Assembly: GCA_021734245.1 (NCBI GenBank)
Contig: JAIPJH010000012.1
Location: forward strand, 1 to 44,741
Reading direction: 5' to 3'
Length of the DNA stretch: 44,741 bases
From: Candidatus Cloacimonadota bacterium
GTDB taxonomy: Bacteria > Cloacimonadota > Cloacimonadia > Cloacimonadales > TCS61
This document shows, one piece after another, positions 1,770 to 13,535 of the stretch (position 1 is the first letter of the stretch; every line of letters starts with the position of its first letter). Under the pieces are notes generated by a model. It made no database searches. It saw only the letters and a program-made list of their open reading frames with translations, and had not been told where the DNA came from. The position numbers were made by a program, and so were the translations under genes.

Positions 1770-2408
1770 ATGGGAATTCTGGAAAGAAAGGAGCGGGAGA
1801 AAGAGCAGCGTAAGATCGATATAATCGATGCTGCAGAAAAGGTATTTTTCTCCAAAGGCTTTGATAACGCCAGCATGAATGATGTGGCTGAACAAGCTGA
1901 ATTGAGCAAGGGAACACTTTATCTTTATTTCAACAGCAAAAATGAACTCTGTATGGCTATCATCGTTCGTAGTTTGGAAAAGATTTTGGAGCTGTTCCAG
2001 AAAATTATTGATAAAAATTGTAATGGCCTGAAAAAATTACAATTGATCTCCGAAGAATTCTTAAATTTTACCATCGCTCATCCAAAATATTATAAAGCAC
2101 TACTCACTTTTAGAAATCATAGTATTGAATGTTCTGAAACTGGATATATTTATCAGGAAAGTTTAAAAAAAAATTCAGAGATCAATGATTTGATAAAAAA
2201 AATAATCGAATCTGGTCATGCTGATAACAGCATCTCACCTACTGCTGATGCTGCAAAACTTGCTCAGGCGATCTGGGGAAACTTGACAGGATTTCTTCCA
2301 GGATGCATATTAGCAAAGAATCAGATGAACAAGCAGACTGATGTAGAACCTGCTGTAGTTCTGAGATATATCTTCGAGCTGATACAAAATGCAATAAAAG
2401 CTCAATAA
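1770..2408 (+). CDS. TetR/AcrR-family transcriptional regulator
   Basis: A 212-residue regulator. Residues 13-60 are the TetR helix-turn-helix domain (IIDAAEKVFFSKGFDNASMNDVAEQ, then LSKGTLYLYFNSKNEL), and the C-terminal part is an all-helical ligand-binding and dimerisation domain with no recognisable ligand type. AAGGA precedes the ATG. The gene ends 11 bases before mrpE with no terminator, so it is probably the first gene of the respiratory-complex operon and likely controls it through the palindrome at 1723-1735. TetR proteins are usually repressors relieved by a small ligand; the ligand here is unknown. Confidence 0.9.
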   Translation: MGILERKEREKEQRKIDIIDAAEKVFFSKGFDNASMNDVAEQAELSKGTLYLYFNSKNELCMAIIVRSLEKILELFQKIIDKNCNGLKKLQLISEEFLNFTIAHPKYYKALLTFRNHSIECSETGYIYQESLKKNSEINDLIKKIIESGHADNSISPTADAAKLAQAIWGNLTGFLPGCILAKNQMNKQTDVEPAVVLRYIFELIQNAIKAQ

Positions 2409-2419
2409 CAGGAGTTTTG

Positions 2420-2914
2420 ATGAAATTTTTTAAAAAAGCTGTTTTCTTATTTATCACACTATTTCTCATCTGGATATTACTTACAGGTTTGCACCCACAG
2501 GAATTGATCATTGGAGCAATTGTAGCTTTAATTATCATGTTGATCTTCCTGGGAAGTGCGGAAATTTTTGCTGAGATCAAACTAACGCCAAAAGCATTTG
2601 TTTTCTGGTTGATCTACATTTTTGTGTTTTTGTGGGAACTTATCAAATCGAATCTGGATGTTGCTTTCAGGGTTTTAAATCCAAAACTTCCCATCAATCC
2701 GGGAATCGTGAAAGTTAAAACAAATCTTAAATCTAAGATCGGCAGAATAATCCTGGCAAATTCTATTACACTTACTCCGGGAACGCTGACCGTAGAAACT
2801 AAAGATGATTTCTTCTATATTCACTGGATCGATATAAGCTCTACCGATATCGAAGGAGCTACGAATGCAATTGTGGCAAAATTTGAAAAATATCTGGAGG
2901 TGATCTTTGGATAA
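2420..2914 (+). CDS. mrpE: Mrp/Mbx antiporter module subunit E (MnhE-like)
   Basis: Short membrane protein of the MnhE/MrpE family (MbhA/MbxA in archaeal complexes). Two or three N-terminal membrane helices (residues about 5-75) are followed by a soluble tail with the family pattern LNPKLPINPGIVKV and SITLTPGTLTVE. It belongs to the ion-translocating Mrp module of the complex encoded here. The ATG at 2420 is chosen because GGAG at 2411-2414 is well spaced for it; a TTG at 2417 lies too close to that site. It overlaps the next gene by 8 bases. Confidence 0.88.
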   Translation: MKFFKKAVFLFITLFLIWILLTGLHPQELIIGAIVALIIMLIFLGSAEIFAEIKLTPKAFVFWLIYIFVFLWELIKSNLDVAFRVLNPKLPINPGIVKVKTNLKSKIGRIILANSITLTPGTLTVETKDDFFYIHWIDISSTDIEGATNAIVAKFEKYLEVIFG

Positions 2915-3176
2915 TCTAGCCAATCTTATCTACAACATCGCAGCATATTTGGCTTTGGCAGGAATGATAATCGCACTCATTCGAATGCTGAAAGGACCAA
3001 CTGCGGCTGACAGAGTAGTAGCACTCGATGTAATGACAATCATTTCCATTTCACTGATCGTTTTCATTGCCGCCCTGCTGAAAAGGATCATCTACATTGA
3101 TGTAGCTCTGGTTTATGCACTCATGAGTTTCATCGGAGTAATAGCGATCGCCCGTTACTTGGAAAGGGGGCTATAA
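2907..3176 (+). CDS. mrpF: Mrp/Mbx antiporter module subunit F
   Basis: An 89-residue, three-helix membrane protein of the MrpF/MnhF family (MbhB/MbxB). The conserved stretch MLKGPTAADRVVALD at about residues 27-41 is the family signature and contains the conserved Asp-Arg and second Asp. It starts with TTG at 2907, inside the end of mrpE, behind a strong GGAGGTGA. It is part of the Mrp ion-translocating module, and translation is probably coupled to mrpE. Confidence 0.9.
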   Translation: MDNLANLIYNIAAYLALAGMIIALIRMLKGPTAADRVVALDVMTIISISLIVFIAALLKRIIYIDVALVYALMSFIGVIAIARYLERGL

Positions 3177-3536
3177 ATGGAATTAATTGGAGCTATAGTT
3201 ACACTGATCGGAGCAATATTCCTTTTCCTGGGAGCTCTGGGAATTCTGCGAATGCCAGATGTATATAATAGAATGCAGGCGGGAACGAAAGCAACAACCC
3301 TGGGTAGTATTTTCTTCCTGTTTGGAATCTGCATCGGTCATTCTGTAGGAGTTTGTTTCTGGAAAATCGTTCTGTTAATTTTATTCCTGATTTTCACAAA
3401 TCCTATTTCGTCTCACACCTTGGCACGAGCTGCTCATTTTGCCGGGATCAAGTTAGCAAAACGTTCCGTGAAAGACGATCTGGAAAAGGATGAAAATGAA
3501 TCTGTTAATGAAGATTTTAAGGGAGAAGAAATATGA
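3177..3536 (+). CDS. mrpG: Mrp/Mbx antiporter module subunit G
   Basis: A 119-residue membrane protein of the MrpG/MnhG family (MbhC/MbxC). Three hydrophobic helices are visible, and the family signature GILRMPDVYNRMQAGTKA is at about residues 23-40. The C-terminal 25 residues are a charged tail rich in Glu, Asp and Lys. The ATG directly follows the mrpF stop, with AAGGGG inside the mrpF end as ribosome site. Component of the ion-translocating module. Confidence 0.9.
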   Translation: MELIGAIVTLIGAIFLFLGALGILRMPDVYNRMQAGTKATTLGSIFFLFGICIGHSVGVCFWKIVLLILFLIFTNPISSHTLARAAHFAGIKLAKRSVKDDLEKDENESVNEDFKGEEI

Positions 3537-3820
3537 TTTCCACAATAATTATTGTACTTGGTATTATCATGATCTTTGCAGCATTTATGGCAATCTATTT
3601 CCAAAACCTGGTTTCGGCTATCCTTAGTGCCGGAGTTATCAGTTTACTTGCCAGTATTATTTATATTTTGCTTGCTGCACCAGACGTAGCGATGACAGAA
3701 GCTGCTATCGGATCAGGATTGACCACGGTAGTCTTTCTTTATGCCTTCAATAAAATTAGAAAAATGAAAGTGGAAAACAGGCAGAAAGCAGCTAACGTAA
3801 AAGGAGAAGAAAATGGTTAA
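3533..3820 (+). CDS. DUF4040 antiporter-module subunit (MbhD/MbxD-like)
   Basis: A 95-residue protein with three membrane helices, matching the DUF4040 family found as MbhD/MbxD in archaeal complexes and as part of the MrpA C-terminal region in ordinary Mrp antiporters. The family core LLAAPDVAMTEAAIGSGLTT is at residues about 46-65 and contains the conserved acidic residue of this subunit. The start overlaps the mrpG stop (ATGA). In classical Mrp operons this domain is fused to MrpA; a separate gene is typical of the Mbh/Mbx arrangement. Confidence 0.87.
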   Translation: MISTIIIVLGIIMIFAAFMAIYFQNLVSAILSAGVISLLASIIYILLAAPDVAMTEAAIGSGLTTVVFLYAFNKIRKMKVENRQKAANVKGEENG

Positions 3821-4496
3821 AAGATTCTTCACCTTCCTTTTTATTATATTCCTTATTTATATATTGTTTCCGATGTTCTATGTTATTTTCAGTGATACTG
3901 AACTTAATCCGCTGGCAGCAAATTACGTGAGTGCAGGACCCGATGAACTGGGCAGCCAGAACCTGGTAACATCTGTAATTGTTACTTATCGTGGATTGGA
4001 CACTTTAGGCGAAGTTACTGTTCTGTTCATTGCCACAGCTGGTGTGGGTTTTCTACTGAAAACTAAAGAAGCAAAATCTAAAAAGAGAAAAGCTTCTGAA
4101 CTTCTGCAGACAGGATCCGGTTTCTTAGCACCTATTATAATTTTATTTGGTGTTTATATCTTTTCCCATGGCCATCTTACACCTGGTGGTGGCTTTCAAG
4201 GTGGAGTTATAATCGCTACTGGTATATTGCTGTTGATGCTGGCAAACGTGAACTGGAAAATGAATAAAACTGTGTTACACACAATTGAATCTCTTTCCGG
4301 TGCATTTTATATTGTAATTGGTTTACTGGGAATTTTCCTGGCAGGCGGATTTCTGGATAATCGCATTTTACCTCTGGGAGAATTTGGTACACTTTTCAGT
4401 GCCGGAGCTATTCCCATAATTTACTCTCTGATTGGACTAAAAGTAGGTTCCGAACTGGTGGGAATTCTGGATAACTTGAGCGGGGAGGAAGCATGA
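3813..4496 (+). CDS. mrpB: MbhE-MnhB fused antiporter-module subunit (MbxF-like)
   Basis: A 227-residue protein joining two small Mrp-module domains. The N-terminal part carries NLVTSVIVTYRGLDTLGEVTVL (about residues 50-71), the MbhE pattern; the C-terminal part from about residue 95 is MnhB/MrpB, with the signature HGHLTPGGGFQGG at about 120-132. About six membrane helices are visible. In Mbh these domains are two genes (E and F); one fused protein here fits the Mbx-type layout. It overlaps both neighbours by a few bases. Confidence 0.87.
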   Translation: MVKRFFTFLFIIFLIYILFPMFYVIFSDTELNPLAANYVSAGPDELGSQNLVTSVIVTYRGLDTLGEVTVLFIATAGVGFLLKTKEAKSKKRKASELLQTGSGFLAPIIILFGVYIFSHGHLTPGGGFQGGVIIATGILLLMLANVNWKMNKTVLHTIESLSGAFYIVIGLLGIFLAGGFLDNRILPLGEFGTLFSAGAIPIIYSLIGLKVGSELVGILDNLSGEEA

Positions 4497-4846
4497 TCTT
4501 AGTTTCAATGCTTGGCTTTATTCTTATCATTATTGGTTTGTGGGGAATGCTGACTCAGAAAAATATCATCAAGATGATCATTGGATTTTCCATAATCGAT
4601 ACCGGAATTCATCTCGTGATAGTTTCCATTGGCTACCTGAAAGACCGCACAGCTCCCATTTTGGATGCTGCAGTTGAAAAAGCAACAGCAGTAGAAAGAG
4701 TAGTCGACCCTGTTCCCTCTGCTCTGGTTCTAACTGCAATTGTAATCGGGCTGGCCGTTACAGCGCTCATGCTGGTTTACGCCGTGCAAATGTATAAACA
4801 TAAAAAATCATTGCAGATAAATGATTTTGAGGAGTTGAAATGGTAA
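4493..4846 (+). CDS. mrpC: Mrp/Mbx antiporter module subunit C (NuoK-like)
   Basis: A 117-residue, three-helix membrane protein of the MrpC/MnhC/NuoK family (MbhG/MbxG). The last helix contains DPVPSALVLTAIVIGLAVTAL, the most conserved part of the family. Between helices two and three is a loop (about residues 45-70) longer than in NuoK but usual in Mbh/Mbx homologues. The ATG overlaps the preceding stop, and the end overlaps the next start by 7 bases. Confidence 0.9.
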   Translation: MILVSMLGFILIIIGLWGMLTQKNIIKMIIGFSIIDTGIHLVIVSIGYLKDRTAPILDAAVEKATAVERVVDPVPSALVLTAIVIGLAVTALMLVYAVQMYKHKKSLQINDFEELKW

Positions 4847-7971: not shown

Positions 7972-7984
7972 TTAGGAGAGTTTG

Positions 7985-8902
7985 ATGGAATTTAGTTTTC
8001 CGAATTCAATATATTTTGCGATAATTTCACTGGCATTTGCTATAATTTATGGTTTATTCATGTTTGGCTTTGTAGCCAGGATCGTGGCACGTGTTCATGG
8101 AAGAATTGGAATGCCGGTCTGGCAGCCGTTTCTGGATATCATCAAAAACAACGGCAAACGCACCATGATATCACATGGAATAATGTTTTATCTTGGTTCT
8201 GTATTTCGTTTAGCTGGTGGACTGGGATTATATCTTTTTATGCCGGTTTTATACGGTTCAGAATTTTTTGCCAATTTCAGTTTCAGCGGAGATCTGCTTC
8301 TTTTGATGTATTTCTTCTTTTTTGGCCAGTTGGGAATGGCTTTGGGTGCTGGAGAAAGCGGACATCCTTACGCTGCAATGGGAGTAAGTAGAGGACTTTC
8401 TCAAATGACGGCCTTTGAAGTTCCCTACACTTTAGCGGTTATTTCTCTGGTAATCCAATATAAAACTTTAAACGTGCTTGATATTGTTGCCGCTCAACAA
8501 GGTTCATTTCTAAACTGGACGCTCTTCACAAATCCCCTGGCAGTAACAGCTGCTATTTTAGCAATGCTGGGAATGAACATGCATTCACCGTTCGATATTG
8601 TGCGTGCACCACAGGAAATTCCAGTTGGACCTCCAGTTGAACATCACAGCGCTTTTCTGGGAATGCTGCAGACAAATCGAGCTCTATTCAATGTTGCAAA
8701 ACTGATTTTATTCATGAATCTTTTCTTCGGTGGTGCTACGAATCTTATTGTGCTTATCATCAAAACTTTCCTCATTTATATGATTTCGGTTGTGGTTGGC
8801 GTTGCCTTCCCACGTTTCCGAACCGAACAATCGATCCGATTTTTCCTGGGAATTCCAACCATTATTGGAATTCTATCGATAATATTCTGGGCAATAAAAT
8901 AA
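7985..8902 (+). CDS. NuoH-like membrane anchor subunit (MbxM-like)
   Basis: A 305-residue, roughly eight-helix membrane protein of the NuoH/HycD/MbhM family. It anchors the peripheral electron-transfer arm and links it to the ion channels. Family signatures are ARVHGRIGMPVWQPFLDIIK at about 34-53, GAGESGHPYAAMGVSRGLSQM at about 120-140, and the acidic loop FDIVRAPQEIPVGPPVEHHS at about 202-221. The ATG at 7985 is preferred over the TTG at 7982 because AGGAG lies 6 bases before it. Confidence 0.9.
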   Translation: MEFSFPNSIYFAIISLAFAIIYGLFMFGFVARIVARVHGRIGMPVWQPFLDIIKNNGKRTMISHGIMFYLGSVFRLAGGLGLYLFMPVLYGSEFFANFSFSGDLLLLMYFFFFGQLGMALGAGESGHPYAAMGVSRGLSQMTAFEVPYTLAVISLVIQYKTLNVLDIVAAQQGSFLNWTLFTNPLAVTAAILAMLGMNMHSPFDIVRAPQEIPVGPPVEHHSAFLGMLQTNRALFNVAKLILFMNLFFGGATNLIVLIIKTFLIYMISVVVGVAFPRFRTEQSIRFFLGIPTIIGILSIIFWAIK

Positions 8903-8915
8903 GGAGAGCCTTCCA

Positions 8916-9536
8916 ATGAAAAAAGAAAAAGAAAAATTAGCAAATCTGGGTTTGCCGGAACATGAACGAGACCTCTTTTGTGATGCCCGTCCGACACCTT
9001 CTAAACCTTTTGCCAGATACATCGAGAAATTTGTTAACTGGGCACGAGCAAACTCTCTGTGGCTGATCGCTTACGGAACAGGCTGCGGTGCCATTGAGCT
9101 GCGCCCGCTGATGACTTCCCGCTACGATATGTATCGATATGGAATAGCTCCCCGACCGACTCCGCGCCAATCGTCGGTTTTCATCATCGGTGGCTACATG
9201 AGTGTAAAAACACTGAAGCGCGTTGTACGCAGTTATGAACAAATGCAGAATCCCAAATTCGTGATCGCTCTGGGCAGCTGCACGATAAACGGCGGCATGT
9301 ATTACGATAGTTATTACACCATAAATCGCGTCGATCATTACATTCCGGTTGATGTGTATGTGGCAGGTTGTATGCCGCGACCAGAAGCAATTATTGCAGG
9401 CTTCAACAAACTGAAAGAACTTATCAAAGCCGGCAAAGGTGAAGGTGCCAATAAATATGCCGAGAATTTTGACTGGTACAAAAATAATCAGAAAAAGATA
9501 ATTAAAGACTGGAATATGCCCGATTATAACTGGTAG
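8916..9536 (+). CDS. NuoB/hydrogenase small-subunit-like protein (MbxJ-like)
   Basis: A 206-residue soluble subunit homologous to NuoB and group-4 hydrogenase small subunits, expected to carry the FeS cluster nearest the catalytic site. Visible cysteines are C22, C57 (GTGCGAIE), C122 (GSC) and C152 (AGCMPRPEA). NuoB has a tandem CC, and hydrogenases CxxC, at the first position; here only C57 is present, so three of the four usual ligands remain. The fourth may be C22 or a non-cysteine residue, or the cluster may be altered. The N-terminal 50 residues are charged and lack the usual fold signature. It sits between the NuoH- and NuoC-like genes in the operon. Confidence 0.88.
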   Translation: MKKEKEKLANLGLPEHERDLFCDARPTPSKPFARYIEKFVNWARANSLWLIAYGTGCGAIELRPLMTSRYDMYRYGIAPRPTPRQSSVFIIGGYMSVKTLKRVVRSYEQMQNPKFVIALGSCTINGGMYYDSYYTINRVDHYIPVDVYVAGCMPRPEAIIAGFNKLKELIKAGKGEGANKYAENFDWYKNNQKKIIKDWNMPDYNW

Positions 9537-9542
9537 GAAAAA

Positions 9543-10103
9543 ATGAAAGAATTATTGAACGCAATTAAGAAAAAATATGGATTAAAAAAAGTTGTTAAGC
9601 AGCGAGATGATTTGTTTTTCGTAACTGTACCCAAGAGTTATGCTGTCGACTTCATCACACACATGAAAGATTATGAAAAATTTACACATCTTGCTTTCTT
9701 AAATGCAGTGGACCGGCTGGAAAAGAATCTTTTTCAACTTACTTATCTGCTGGATAATCCCACCTCAAATATAAGTTTGGGAATTCGTGTTGAAGTATCT
9801 CGAACTGAACCGGAAATGACGACAATTCATCATCTCTGGAATCAGGTTGCAGCTTACGAAAGAGAATTAAAAGAAATGTTCGGAATTCGCTTTCCCGGCA
9901 GTCCACGCCAGCATGAATCTTTTGTTTTGGAAGGTTGGCAGGAAATTCCACCCATGCGCAGAGATTTTGATACGCTCAAATATTCCAATGAAACCTTCTT
10001 CCCACGACCAGGAAGGCAAACACACGATCCCAAAGAATATATGAAAGAAAAGCTATATCCTGATTTCTTTAAAAAAGAAAAGGAGGAAACAGATGAACGC
10101 TAA
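9543..10103 (+). CDS. NuoC-like 30-kDa subunit (MbxK-like)
   Basis: A 186-residue soluble subunit of the NuoC/HycE-N/MbhK family, which packs against the NuoD-like subunit and has no cofactor. The family signature spans about residues 104-145: WNQVAAYERELKEMFGIRF, then PPMRRDF. The length fits MbhK-type proteins. AGGAAAAA precedes the ATG, and the 3' end overlaps the NuoD-like gene by 11 bases, which suggests coupled translation and equal subunit amounts. Confidence 0.88.
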   Translation: MKELLNAIKKKYGLKKVVKQRDDLFFVTVPKSYAVDFITHMKDYEKFTHLAFLNAVDRLEKNLFQLTYLLDNPTSNISLGIRVEVSRTEPEMTTIHHLWNQVAAYERELKEMFGIRFPGSPRQHESFVLEGWQEIPPMRRDFDTLKYSNETFFPRPGRQTHDPKEYMKEKLYPDFFKKEKEETDER

Positions 10104-11259
10104 TCGAGATAAATATCCTCCTATTCATAACGGAAAAGCGAAGATCGATCTTGATTCTCAAAAATATGTGAAATTGTGGCAAGGTCCGCAACATCCCGGT
10201 GTGACAGGAAATATGTCTTTGGAAGTAACTTTGTGCGGTGATGAAGTAGTCGATCTTAAAACGCACGTGGGCTATTTGCATCGCGGTTTTGAAAAATTGA
10301 TCGAACGCCGCAAATTCATCCAGAATTTTACTATCGTCTGCCGCATCTGCGTTCCCGAACCCGATACGAATGAATATTTATATTGCGCTGCTGTGGAAGA
10401 TCTGGCAGGAATTAAAGTTCCCGAAAAAGCAGTCTGGCTGCGAACCTTAACGATGGAACTTTCCCGTTTAGCAAGCTTTCTCATGTGGATCGGCGGACAA
10501 GCCGGAGCTTTGGGATTGGGAACAGTAGGACAATGGACTGTAACGCATCGTGATTATATTCTGGATCTTTTTGAAGAGCTTTCCGGTGCCAGAATTTATC
10601 ATATGTACATTGTTCCCGGCGGCGTACGATATGATCTTCCTGATGGGTTTGATAATAGATTGGAAGCTGTACTTCAAAAAGTTGAAAAACTTCTAAAAGA
10701 AGTAAAAATGGTGCTTCTAAACAATATCGTTGTAAAAAAACGTCTTATCGGTTTGGGAATTATCAATCAGGAAATGGTTGATCAATTTGGAATTGTCGGG
10801 CCAAATGCCCGTTCTACAGGATTGAAAAGAGATATTAGAAAAGACAATCCCTATTTAGTTTATGATCAACTGGATTTTGAACCTGTAACTCATTCTCATT
10901 CAGATGCTTACAATAGAATAGTTAGCAGATATAATGAGATGTTGCAGTCAATTGATCTGATTCGTCAAATCATGCGCAGAATTCCGGAAAAAGGCAAAAT
11001 TCATAAAACACTGCCTAATGTACTGAACTGGAAAATTCCAGCTGGAGAAACCTATGTGAAAGCCGAATCCACCCGCGGTGAATACGGCTATTATCTGGTT
11101 TCAGATGGTTCTGGTAAACCTAGAAGATGTTACGTGCGAGGTCCCAGCTACACACATGCAATTCCACTTTTGGAACATTTAGCAATCGGAACAAACATCG
11201 CAGATCTTGCAGCTTTGATGGTTTCTCTGCACACTTATCCACCGGAAATTGAGAGGTAA
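10093..11259 (+). CDS. NuoD/NiFe-hydrogenase-large-subunit-like catalytic protein without NiFe ligands (MbxL-like)
   Basis: A 388-residue homologue of NuoD and group-4 hydrogenase large subunits (HPGVTGNMSLEV, VGYLHRGFEKLIERR near the N-terminus). Where NiFe enzymes have RICGIC, this protein has C83-R-I-C86-V-P-E89, so C86 aligns with the first ligand and E89 with the second. The C-terminus (RGPSYTHAIPLLEH...LAALMVSLHTYPPEIER) has no CxxC at all and resembles NuoD. A NiFe centre is therefore very unlikely, and the protein should not be called a hydrogenase. This state is like the Mbx/Mbs family, where electrons go to sulfane sulfur or NAD(P) rather than to protons. AAGGAGGAAACAG precedes the ATG. 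Confidence 0.88.
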   Translation: MNANRDKYPPIHNGKAKIDLDSQKYVKLWQGPQHPGVTGNMSLEVTLCGDEVVDLKTHVGYLHRGFEKLIERRKFIQNFTIVCRICVPEPDTNEYLYCAAVEDLAGIKVPEKAVWLRTLTMELSRLASFLMWIGGQAGALGLGTVGQWTVTHRDYILDLFEELSGARIYHMYIVPGGVRYDLPDGFDNRLEAVLQKVEKLLKEVKMVLLNNIVVKKRLIGLGIINQEMVDQFGIVGPNARSTGLKRDIRKDNPYLVYDQLDFEPVTHSHSDAYNRIVSRYNEMLQSIDLIRQIMRRIPEKGKIHKTLPNVLNWKIPAGETYVKAESTRGEYGYYLVSDGSGKPRRCYVRGPSYTHAIPLLEHLAIGTNIADLAALMVSLHTYPPEIER

Positions 11260-11263
11260 AATT

Positions 11264-13045
11264 ATGAGCTTAAAAGATATATTGTCACCGTTTTATGTTT
11301 GGAAGAGAGCTTTCGAAAAACCCTACACAACACCAAATCCGCTTCAAGACAGACCAGGAGCCGAAAGATATCGAGGTTTTCATCAAAATGATCTGGAAAA
11401 ATGCATCGGCTGTGGCTCTTGTGAAGCGATCTGCCAGAATGCAGCAATCGACATGGTTCCGGTAGAAGGAATTGAAACGACGAAAAAAGACAGTGGACTT
11501 CGTCCGCAAATAGATTATGGTCGCTGCTGCTGGTGCGCTTTATGTGTAGATATCTGTACAACCGATTCCTTGAAAATGAGCAATGATTATACCTGGGTAG
11601 ATACTGATGCAGATGTTTTTCGATTTGTACCGGGAGCAGAAACAAAAAAATGGGACAAAATCGAAGAAGGTTATCAGCGGAGTGATGAATATAAATTGTT
11701 ACTTCCAGATCAAATAAAAATGCCGATGATGACAGCAGATGAAAGCATTCAATCTTTTTTGGAAGTGGTGAAAGGATACTCCAAAAATGAAGCGATAAGA
11801 GAAGCAGAACGGTGCGTGGAATGCGGACTTTGTGTGGCTTCCTGTCCTGCCCATATGGACATCCCCGAATACATCAAAGCAATCAGAGAAGATAATCTGG
11901 AAGAAGCTTTACAGCTGCTTTATAAGACAAATCCAATGCCTTCGACATGTGGAAGAATTTGTACTCATCTTTGTGAAGGTGCTTGTTCGATTGGTGTAAA
12001 GGGTGAAGCTCTGGCAATTCGCTGGCTCAAACGCTATATTGTAGATCAGATCGAACCTTCCAAATTCAAAGAAATTCTAAAGGATGAATTCAAACCCAAC
12101 AATAAGAAAATAGCAATAATTGGAGCAGGCCCGGCTGGTTTGAGTGCTGCATATTATTTGATTACTACCGGTTATGATGTTACAGTTTTTGAAGCTAATG
12201 AAAAAGCCGGCGGCATGATCCGTTATGGCGTTCCCGAATATCGCATGCCCTACGATAAACTGGATGAAGAAATCGCTTACATCGAAAATCTGGGAGTGAA
12301 GATAAAATATAATTACAGGATCGGAGAAAAGATAAAATTTCAGGATCTGCAAAATGATTTCGAGGCAATTTTCATTTCTCCGGGTATGTGGAATTCCATT
12401 CCTGTAAATATTGTAGGTGAAGAACTTCCGCAAGTATTATCGGGAATTCAGCTTCTGAACAAAGTGACAAATAAAGAAAAAATAGAACTTGGCAAAAAAG
12501 TGGGTGTTATTGGTGGTGGAAACTCTGCCATGGATGCTGCCAGAACCGCTCGCAGATTGGGAGCGGAAGTTGATATCTATTATCGTCGAAGAATAGAAGA
12601 TATGCCTGCTGATGATGAAGAAATTGATGAAGCTCAGGAAGAGGGAATTAAATTCTATCCGCAAACAACACCCTTGGAAATCAAAAAAGACGGAAAGGGA
12701 ATTATTTTAATTTGGGGTAAGAATAAAATGAAATATGAGGAAGGAAAACGCCCGAAACCCATTCTTATCAAAGGTGAATCTTTTGAAGTGAAACTTGATT
12801 CATTGATAATTGCTATTGGTCAGAATGCCGATTTCACATTCCTACCAGAAAAATTAAGAGATAAAATTGAAACAAAATGGGATAAGATCGTGGTGGATGA
12901 AAATGGCAAGACCAACATTCCCAAAGTATTTTCCGGTGGTGATGCTTCCAATTATAAAGCTGATGCCATCAGCGCAATTGCCGATGGTCACCGTGCTGCG
13001 ATGGGAATCGATAAATTTTTGAATTCAGGTAAAAATGTAAATTAA
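11264..13045 (+). CDS. fusion of NuoI-like ferredoxin subunit and NfnB/GltD-type NAD(P)H-FAD oxidoreductase
   Basis: A 593-residue protein. Residues 1-140 form a NuoI/MbxN-like ferredoxin with two [4Fe-4S] motifs: C47-C50-C53-C57, and C88-C91-C94-C98 within RCCWCALCVDIC. Residues 180-245 hold two more cysteine sets, C184-C187-C190-C194 and C229-C233-C237-C241, the latter as in GltD/NfnB N-terminal domains. Then come the FAD motif IAIIGAGPAG (about 283-292), the NAD(P) motif GVIGGGNSAMDAA (about 414-426) with YYRRRIEDMPA typical of the GltD/NfnB family, and a C-terminal FSGGD FAD signature. In archaeal Mbx the N subunit is only the ferredoxin part. The fusion places an NAD(P)H site directly on the ion-pumping complex. 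The ATG at 11264 follows GAGAGGT; an in-frame TTG at 11249 inside the previous gene is less likely. Confidence 0.9.
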   Translation: MSLKDILSPFYVWKRAFEKPYTTPNPLQDRPGAERYRGFHQNDLEKCIGCGSCEAICQNAAIDMVPVEGIETTKKDSGLRPQIDYGRCCWCALCVDICTTDSLKMSNDYTWVDTDADVFRFVPGAETKKWDKIEEGYQRSDEYKLLLPDQIKMPMMTADESIQSFLEVVKGYSKNEAIREAERCVECGLCVASCPAHMDIPEYIKAIREDNLEEALQLLYKTNPMPSTCGRICTHLCEGACSIGVKGEALAIRWLKRYIVDQIEPSKFKEILKDEFKPNNKKIAIIGAGPAGLSAAYYLITTGYDVTVFEANEKAGGMIRYGVPEYRMPYDKLDEEIAYIENLGVKIKYNYRIGEKIKFQDLQNDFEAIFISPGMWNSIPVNIVGEELPQVLSGIQLLNKVTNKEKIELGKKVGVIGGGNSAMDAARTARRLGAEVDIYYRRRIEDMPADDEEIDEAQEEGIKFYPQTTPLEIKKDGKGIILIWGKNKMKYEEGKRPKPILIKGESFEVKLDSLIIAIGQNADFTFLPEKLRDKIETKWDKIVVDENGKTNIPKVFSGGDASNYKADAISAIADGHRAAMGIDKFLNSGKNVN

Positions 13046-13073: not shown

Positions 13074-13535
13074 ATGCTGATAGAAGATATTTTAAAAGAA
13101 AAAGGCCGACAAATAATATCGATCAATCAAAAAGATTCTATCTGTGATGTTTTGCAGCTTTTCACAGAAAAGAAGATCGGCTCGGTAATCGTGATGGATG
13201 ATAATGAAAAAATTGCCGGGATAATAACTGAAAAAGATGTTTTAAAATGTTATCGGGATGCTGAAAAATTCGATCAATTGAAAATAAAAGATTTTATGAC
13301 TCCCAAAGAAAACCTGATAATTGCATCTTACAATGATGACATCCAATATGCCATGTGCATGATGACAAAACACAGGATAAAGCATTTGCCGATTTTTAAA
13401 GATTCTCAACTTTTTGGGATAATTTCAATAGGAGATCTCATCAAAGCCCAACTTAAGCAAAGCCAGCATACTGCGAAAACATATCTTGATCTTTTGGAAG
13501 GAAAAACTCCTCAACCTGACAATGAAGAATTTTAA
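13074..13535 (+). CDS. CBS-pair domain protein
   Basis: A 153-residue soluble protein made of two CBS domains (about 1-62 and 72-132), with characteristic GSVIVMDDNEKIAGIITEKD and IKHLPIFKDSQLFGIISIGD strands. CBS pairs bind adenine nucleotides such as AMP, ATP or NAD and regulate partners. It starts 28 bases after the oxidoreductase fusion, with AAAGGAG upstream and no terminator between, so it is probably co-transcribed and may report energy or redox state to the complex. That link is inferred from position only. Confidence 0.85.
   Translation: MLIEDILKEKGRQIISINQKDSICDVLQLFTEKKIGSVIVMDDNEKIAGIITEKDVLKCYRDAEKFDQLKIKDFMTPKENLIIASYNDDIQYAMCMMTKHRIKHLPIFKDSQLFGIISIGDLIKAQLKQSQHTAKTYLDLLEGKTPQPDNEEF

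Follow-up and report, generated by a model that had tools for sequence, protein, structure and literature searches.

The nearest described counterpart of the complex analyzed here is MBS of P. furiosus, in which ferredoxin is the electron source (PMC7684303). Three cysteines ligate its proximal [4Fe-4S] cluster, which reduces polysulfide at an open iron; C25 is not a ligand of this cluster, and MBS lacks complex I's quinone residues (PMC7684303). Among flavoproteins with an NfnL-type module, StnC has a lysine (K170) or Cys114 at the place of the glutamate that is a ligand of the FAD-proximal cluster in NfnB, its R239 (equivalent to NfnB R201) makes no bond to N5, and its FAD was judged to be non-bifurcating (PMC10482914). 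Nfn-Bfu enzymes also use NfnL-type modules simply to take in electrons from NADPH (PMC9304861). In T. maritima the mbxA transcript is up 4.36-fold with S0, and the passages on MBX in the same source call it a 13-subunit ferredoxin-dependent sulfur reductase and mention no NADPH domain (PMC9431562).

The window, a stretch of 44,741 nucleotides from a Candidatus Cloacimonadota bacterium (GCA_021734245.1, contig JAIPJH010000012.1), contains an MBS-like operon that encodes a complete Mrp-derived membrane arm and ends with a gene for a ferredoxin and a flavoprotein in one chain (Table 1). This gene is a single open frame of 593 amino acids (ATG at 11264, stop at 13045). A TTG-started ORF opens at 11249, but the ATG is the better start because GAGAGG precedes it; the NuoD-like gene ends at 11259, four bases before this ATG. 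Pfam places a 4Fe-4S dicluster domain at residues 46-101, Fer4_20 at 163-264, and Pyr_redox_2 at 282-573, and the Pfam, NCBIfam, and PDB searches concur on a NuoI/MbsN-like N-terminal part (residues ~1-135) joined to an NfnL/GltD-type part (residues ~146-588). The first fold match of an AlphaFold model of the fusion (40 sequences, mean pLDDT 84.5, pTM 0.80) is P. furiosus NfnL. A sequence-only reading of this gene had described one polypeptide made of a NuoI/MbxN-like ferredoxin and an NfnB/GltD-type oxidoreductase, with four Fe-S motifs forming a continuous electron wire and a possible bifurcating flavin. The two halves and the four motifs are borne out by these searches, with every cysteine set at the residues that had been named, and the continuous wire is plausible; the NfnB-type identity does not hold up, and bifurcation is unlikely.

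Table 1. Genes of the operon and sites within the fusion gene, in positions of the window
Feature	Position	Strand	Basis or remark
TetR-family regulator, operon head	1770..2408	+	Pfam, gene order
MnhE/MrpE	2417..2914	+	Pfam
MrpF	2907..3176	+	short ORF, below the length of the first ORF list
MnhG/MrpG	3177..3536	+	Pfam
MbhD-type subunit	3533..3820	+	short ORF, below the length of the first ORF list
MbhE + MnhB-type subunit	3813..4496	+	Pfam
MnhC/NuoK-type subunit	4493..4846	+	Pfam
Two fused antiporter-like subunits (MbsH + MbsH'), 1043 aa	4840..7971	+	Pfam, PDB comparison
NuoH/MbsM-type membrane anchor	7982..8902	+	Pfam, PDB comparison
NuoB/MbsJ-type subunit	8916..9536	+	only three proximal-cluster cysteines, C57, C122, C152
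NuoC/MbsK-type subunit	9543..10103	+	sequence match
NuoD/MbsL-type subunit	10093..11259	+	without NiFe site and without quinone His/Tyr; RICVPEPD at 10342-10365
Fusion gene	11264..13045	+	MbsN/NuoI-like ferredoxin aa 1-~135, linker, NfnL/GltD-fold NADPH:FAD module aa ~160-589
NuoI-type cluster motif 1, C47/50/53/57	11402..11434	+	invariant in 41/41
NuoI-type cluster motif 2, C88/(89)/91/94/98	11525..11557	+	with extra invariant C89
GltD/NfnL-type cysteines C184, C187, C190, C194	11813..11845	+	invariant in 41/41, alignments
GltD/NfnL-type cysteines C229, C233, C237, C241	11948..11986	+	invariant in 41/41, alignments
K256	12029..12031	+	position of NfnB Glu ligand and StnC Lys170
FAD-binding Rossmann motif, aa 282-321	12107..12226	+	Pfam
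R327	12242..12244	+	equivalent of NfnB R201 and StnC R239, by alignment
NADP(H)-binding motif, type A, VIGGGNSAMDAARTARRLGAEVDIYYRRR, aa 415-443	12506..12592	+	sequence comparison
CBS-domain protein, directly 3' of fusion	13074..13535	+	kept beside several homologous operons

A strong match to the fusion is found in 42 of the 125 genomes searched in the phylum. Forty further genes, 41-69% identical to the window's, run uninterrupted across the ferredoxin/flavoprotein junction, and all 17 cysteines and K256 are kept in every full-length fusion (41/41, the window's copy included); R327 is present in every row of a 40-row alignment of fusions. Because 40 relatives read through the junction with all of the cysteines, the fusion is no sequencing artefact, and the missed stop between the halves that the sequence-only reading had considered is not there. 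C89 (11528-11530) adjoins C88 to give RCCWC in 41/41 fusions, where MbsN has RCTFC, and an equivalent is absent from the MbsN and complex I chains aligned. Plasmid copies were rejected as members of the fusion group, their matches being only GltD/NfnB/AegA-like.

The relatives share the gene order MrpE-(F)-G-B-C / antiporters / NuoH-B-C-D / fusion, which recurs in Candidatus Neomarinimicrobiota, Thiothrix, Aliiroseovarius, and Thiotrichales, and in Bacteroidales as far as the contig reaches; homologous operons are also present in Pseudomonadota, Bacteroidota, and Neomarinimicrobiota. A TetR-family gene, possibly a redox or sulfur regulator, also heads the operons of L037, L040, L041, L042, L050, L053, and L101, and a CBS-domain gene stands at the same place in L007, L040, L041, L043, L101, and L104. 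MbsH and MbsH' are fused in most related operons and are separate genes in a divergent group (L012, L037, L052, L097-L100). Downstream of divergent operons lies a second NuoH/NuoB/NuoD-like set (L097 13420-16004, L098 14977-15909, L099 13275-14630), which has 25-36% identity to the window's subunits and may encode a group 4 hydrogenase.

The fusion itself is not new. Positions 7-609 of NCBIfam NF010590 (PRK13984, "putative oxidoreductase", 611 positions) align to fusion residues 2-589, a full-length match that, at 700.6 bits, is below the curated cut-off of 946, and none of the 40 relatives searched exceeds this cut-off. Only T. maritima among 14 control genomes has a match to the family at E 1e-180, and it is above the cut-off. 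The end-to-end match and the T. maritima member mean that the two-half architecture has already been recorded. In the open-licence literature we found no paper describing this architecture and no biochemistry on any fused member. AegA/YgfT and dihydropyrimidine dehydrogenase also carry ferredoxin-like clusters and a GltD-type module in one chain, but these are soluble proteins outside complex I-like pumps.

What the wire delivers to depends on the host complex, whose MBS type had been missed by the sequence-only reading. In comparison with MBS (6u8y), the L subunit scores 326 bits versus 223 for the best-scoring chain of complex I, J 221 versus 144, N 84 versus 55, M 149 versus 54, and H and H' 186 and 206 versus 163 for MbhH. 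Judged by these scores, the six core subunits searched (H/H', M, J, L, and N) are nearest to P. furiosus MBS and not to complex I or a hydrogenase. In the window and in all related operons covering the sites, the NuoB-like subunit has exactly the three cluster cysteines of MBS and lacks the fourth ligand cysteine of complex I. The large subunit lacks, in the alignment, the two CxxC pairs of group 4 [NiFe]-hydrogenase (MBH). Its sequence reads GPQHPGVTGN where complex I has GPQHPSTHGV, and RICVPEPD, identical in MbsL, where complex I has RMDYLHSF. Further likenesses to MBS are the absence of quinone residues and the Mrp-type arm. The window's complex differs in its fused antiporter subunits and in its N subunit, which is joined to an NADPH:FAD module, whereas MbsN is a free, ferredoxin-fed subunit. 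Two MBS cysteines are also missing: the position of MbsJ C25 is glycine in the window's group and cysteine in the divergent group (L037, L012, L052), and that of MbsL C385, which mutagenesis showed to be dispensable in MBS, is tyrosine in the window's copy.

We consider it reasonably probable that electrons enter an MBS/MBX-type complex through the fusion, and that this complex carries them from NADPH to polysulfide and pumps ions without bifurcation. Besides the likeness to MBS and the lysine shared with StnC, the YRRR coenzyme motif, the use of NfnL-type modules for NADPH input in Nfn-Bfu enzymes, and the S0-dependent rise of mbxA in T. maritima, which has a member of the fusion family, speak in favor. 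Here NADPH would donate a hydride to the FAD of the NfnL/GltD-fold half, and this FAD, acting as a non-bifurcating splitter of two electrons into single ones, would feed a FAD-proximal [4Fe-4S] cluster held by C194, C233, C237, and either K256 or C229. The electrons would then pass to a distal [4Fe-4S] cluster (C184, C187, C190, and C241), through the two NuoI-type clusters, and on to the NuoB/MbsJ cluster with its three cysteines and open iron, where the S-S bond of polysulfide or a related sulfane would be reduced. The energy released would drive the Mrp/antiporter arm (Na+/H+) via NuoH. The frame, motifs, operon, relatives, residue identities, and phylogeny come directly from the sequences, whereas we infer cofactor occupancy and the assignment of cysteines to clusters, as well as the donor, acceptor, coupling, and direction. 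The potential of NADPH (about -0.32 to -0.37 V) is higher than that of ferredoxin and only a little more negative than that of polysulfide (about -0.26 V), and the small span from NADPH to polysulfide would imply a low pumping yield. The NuoI-type clusters might still be fed by ferredoxin, and another acceptor is conceivable in the Pseudomonadota operons.

A complex that instead works as a ferredoxin:NADP+ oxidoreductase, or as a ferredoxin-dependent sulfur reductase with a secondary NADPH module, is unlikely. The first of these functions is the original proposal for MBX, cited in PMC3608648, PMC9431562 depicts the MBX of T. maritima as dependent on ferredoxin, and P. furiosus MBS does take ferredoxin electrons (PMC7684303). 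However, electrons passing from ferredoxin to NADP+ can bypass the NuoB/D site, the presumed place of coupling, while the conservation of the three-cysteine site in all operons checked argues for an acceptor there, and MBS works without any NAD(P) module.

The FAD in our preferred NADPH-to-polysulfide route is, for this step taken alone, likely to carry out simple transfer. Counted along the alignments, K256 corresponds to StnC K170 and the NfnB glutamate, and R327 to StnC R239 and NfnB R201. The bifurcation of the NfnB type raised by the sequence-only reading is unlikely because the operon contains no NfnA gene and the NfnB glutamate ligand is replaced by lysine, as in StnC, in 41/41 fusions. 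It is quite improbable, then, that the NfnL-type FAD splits NADPH electrons between ferredoxin at low potential and the MBS-type acceptor at high potential. The NfnL fold and R327 are present and a docking place for ferredoxin close to the NuoI half is conceivable, but the R201 equivalent is kept in non-bifurcating StnC too, the operon has no other second branch, and the clusters form one chain and not two branches. By textbook potentials, moreover, a reaction from NADPH to ferredoxin and polysulfide would have little net drive. C229, which is shared with bacterial NfnB and not with P. furiosus NfnL or StnC, was considered as an additional ligand peculiar to the fusion; this was rejected because bacterial NfnB with the glutamate ligand and Campylobacterales homologs carry it.

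Phylogenetic analysis, as the sequence-only reading had proposed, places the 24 GltD-type halves tested in a single clade (100/99), distinct from both NfnB (100/99) and StnC/NfnABC (96/93), and the flavoprotein half is thus neither of the NfnB nor of the StnC type. NfnB/NfnL (5jca, 4ylf) share its fold and FAD/NADPH sites and are the best structural match; they differ in their glutamate ligand, NfnA partner, and bifurcating FAD. StnC/NfnABC subunit A (8oh5, 9bov, 9n5u) resembles it as an NfnL-type NADPH input into a longer Fe-S chain, with lysine at the proximal-cluster position and the GGMxRYG motif, but its fusion partners are NuoG-like clusters and a soluble bifurcating core. The window's genome also contains an StnABC-like (Nfn-Bfu) gene set (L092, G000:C49, 2329-8027) and an RnfC gene (L093, G000:C6). 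A YgfK-type protein (TIGR03315, over cut-off) is encoded at L055 (G000:C73, 14191-16011), cut by the contig end.

The NuoB/C/D/H/I-like subunits could also belong to an NADPH:quinone oxidoreductase, a variant of complex I with a swapped input module, and some homologous operons occur in Pseudomonadota, where quinone use is normal. Against this, quinone His38 and Tyr87 (Nqo4 numbering) are missing from every NuoD checked, and the NuoB-like subunit has a single cysteine where complex I has a Cys-Cys pair. The window's NuoD is the single member of its own family in the genome. No match to the futalosine genes MqnA/MqnD was found in the genome, and its sole UbiA-family gene adjoins a GGGP synthase and matches geranylgeranylglycerol-phosphate geranylgeranyltransferase. 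The absence of the quinone residues, together with the lack of quinone-synthesis genes in the two families searched (MqnA/MqnD and UbiA), makes quinone an unlikely acceptor, and we give this function little credence. The GGGP synthase, the DGGGP-synthase-like UbiA gene, and a polyprenyl-synthase-like gene stand in a row (L091, G000:C49, 714-3179), a cluster of archaeal-type ether-lipid genes in a bacterial genome. These lipid genes and the Neomarinimicrobiota relative may point to the FCB group.

The C-terminal nucleotide-binding region of the fusions occurs in two types. Type A, which includes the window's copy, has GGGNxAMDAARTxxRLG..YRRRxEDMPAD, as in the NADPH enzymes NfnL and StnC, while type B has an insertion of 6-8 residues and LES, LET, or LED replacing YRR. 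In Rossmann folds, the loss of arginines and gain of an acidic residue points to NADH. By these motifs type B ("LE") is probably NADH-preferring, and type A ("YRRR") appears to be NADPH-like. Electron flow in the opposite direction, with ion-motive force driving electrons from sulfide or polysulfide to NADP+, is very improbable for the window's complex, since the homologous operons of sulfur-oxidation lineages (Thiothrix, Chromatiaceae, and Thiotrichales) that speak for it carry the LE coenzyme type and not the window's.

The two coenzyme types do not follow the history of the operons. In the GltD-half tree, types A and B each occupy one side of a branch (100/100), whereas this split appears in 0% of bootstraps of the concatenated NuoH-B-C-D tree, and L102, of type A, lies inside a type-B operon clade there (100/100). 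Forcing L102 into its operon clade on the GltD data costs 216 log units (p-AU 9.8e-5), in a test whose group was named after the operon tree had been seen. The operon tree also contains two long rows, L012 and L037, so that their exact placement in it is unsure. L037 has a deeply divergent operon, with a NuoI half 44% identical to that of L041, yet its GltD half is 75% identical to L041's, and the identity climbs at the junction, over residues 120 to 160. These conflicts in L102 and L037 indicate at least two transfers of the flavoprotein, or of its nucleotide domain, among operon lineages, and a shared history of both halves is rejected. As evidence of exchange we kept only the reverse pattern (L037 and L012) and the conflict of operon and cassette (L102); higher identity in the NuoI half than in the GltD half was rejected as a sign of recombination because the C-terminal part is faster-evolving throughout. 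In two genomes, G027 and G034, both types occur, each as a single full-length fusion (L041/L074 and L038/L079, respectively). We tentatively suggest that such complexes may be widespread bacterial NAD(P)H-linked sulfane-reducing ion pumps whose coenzyme is set by an interchangeable cassette (YRRR for NADPH, LE for NADH), and which sulfur oxidizers may run in reverse.

If the NADPH-to-polysulfide function is correct, the complex would be a member of the complex I superfamily that wires NADPH, and not ferredoxin or NADH, to a sulfur-reducing cluster that drives pumping. The T. maritima NF010590 protein is presumably encoded adjacent to the mbx operon; if it belongs to that operon, the donor of MBX needs re-examination, and this complex, drawn as ferredoxin-dependent, may oxidize NAD(P)H. 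The swapped coenzyme motif types would be a natural experiment in which a redox pump is re-tuned between NADH and NADPH through part of one subunit.
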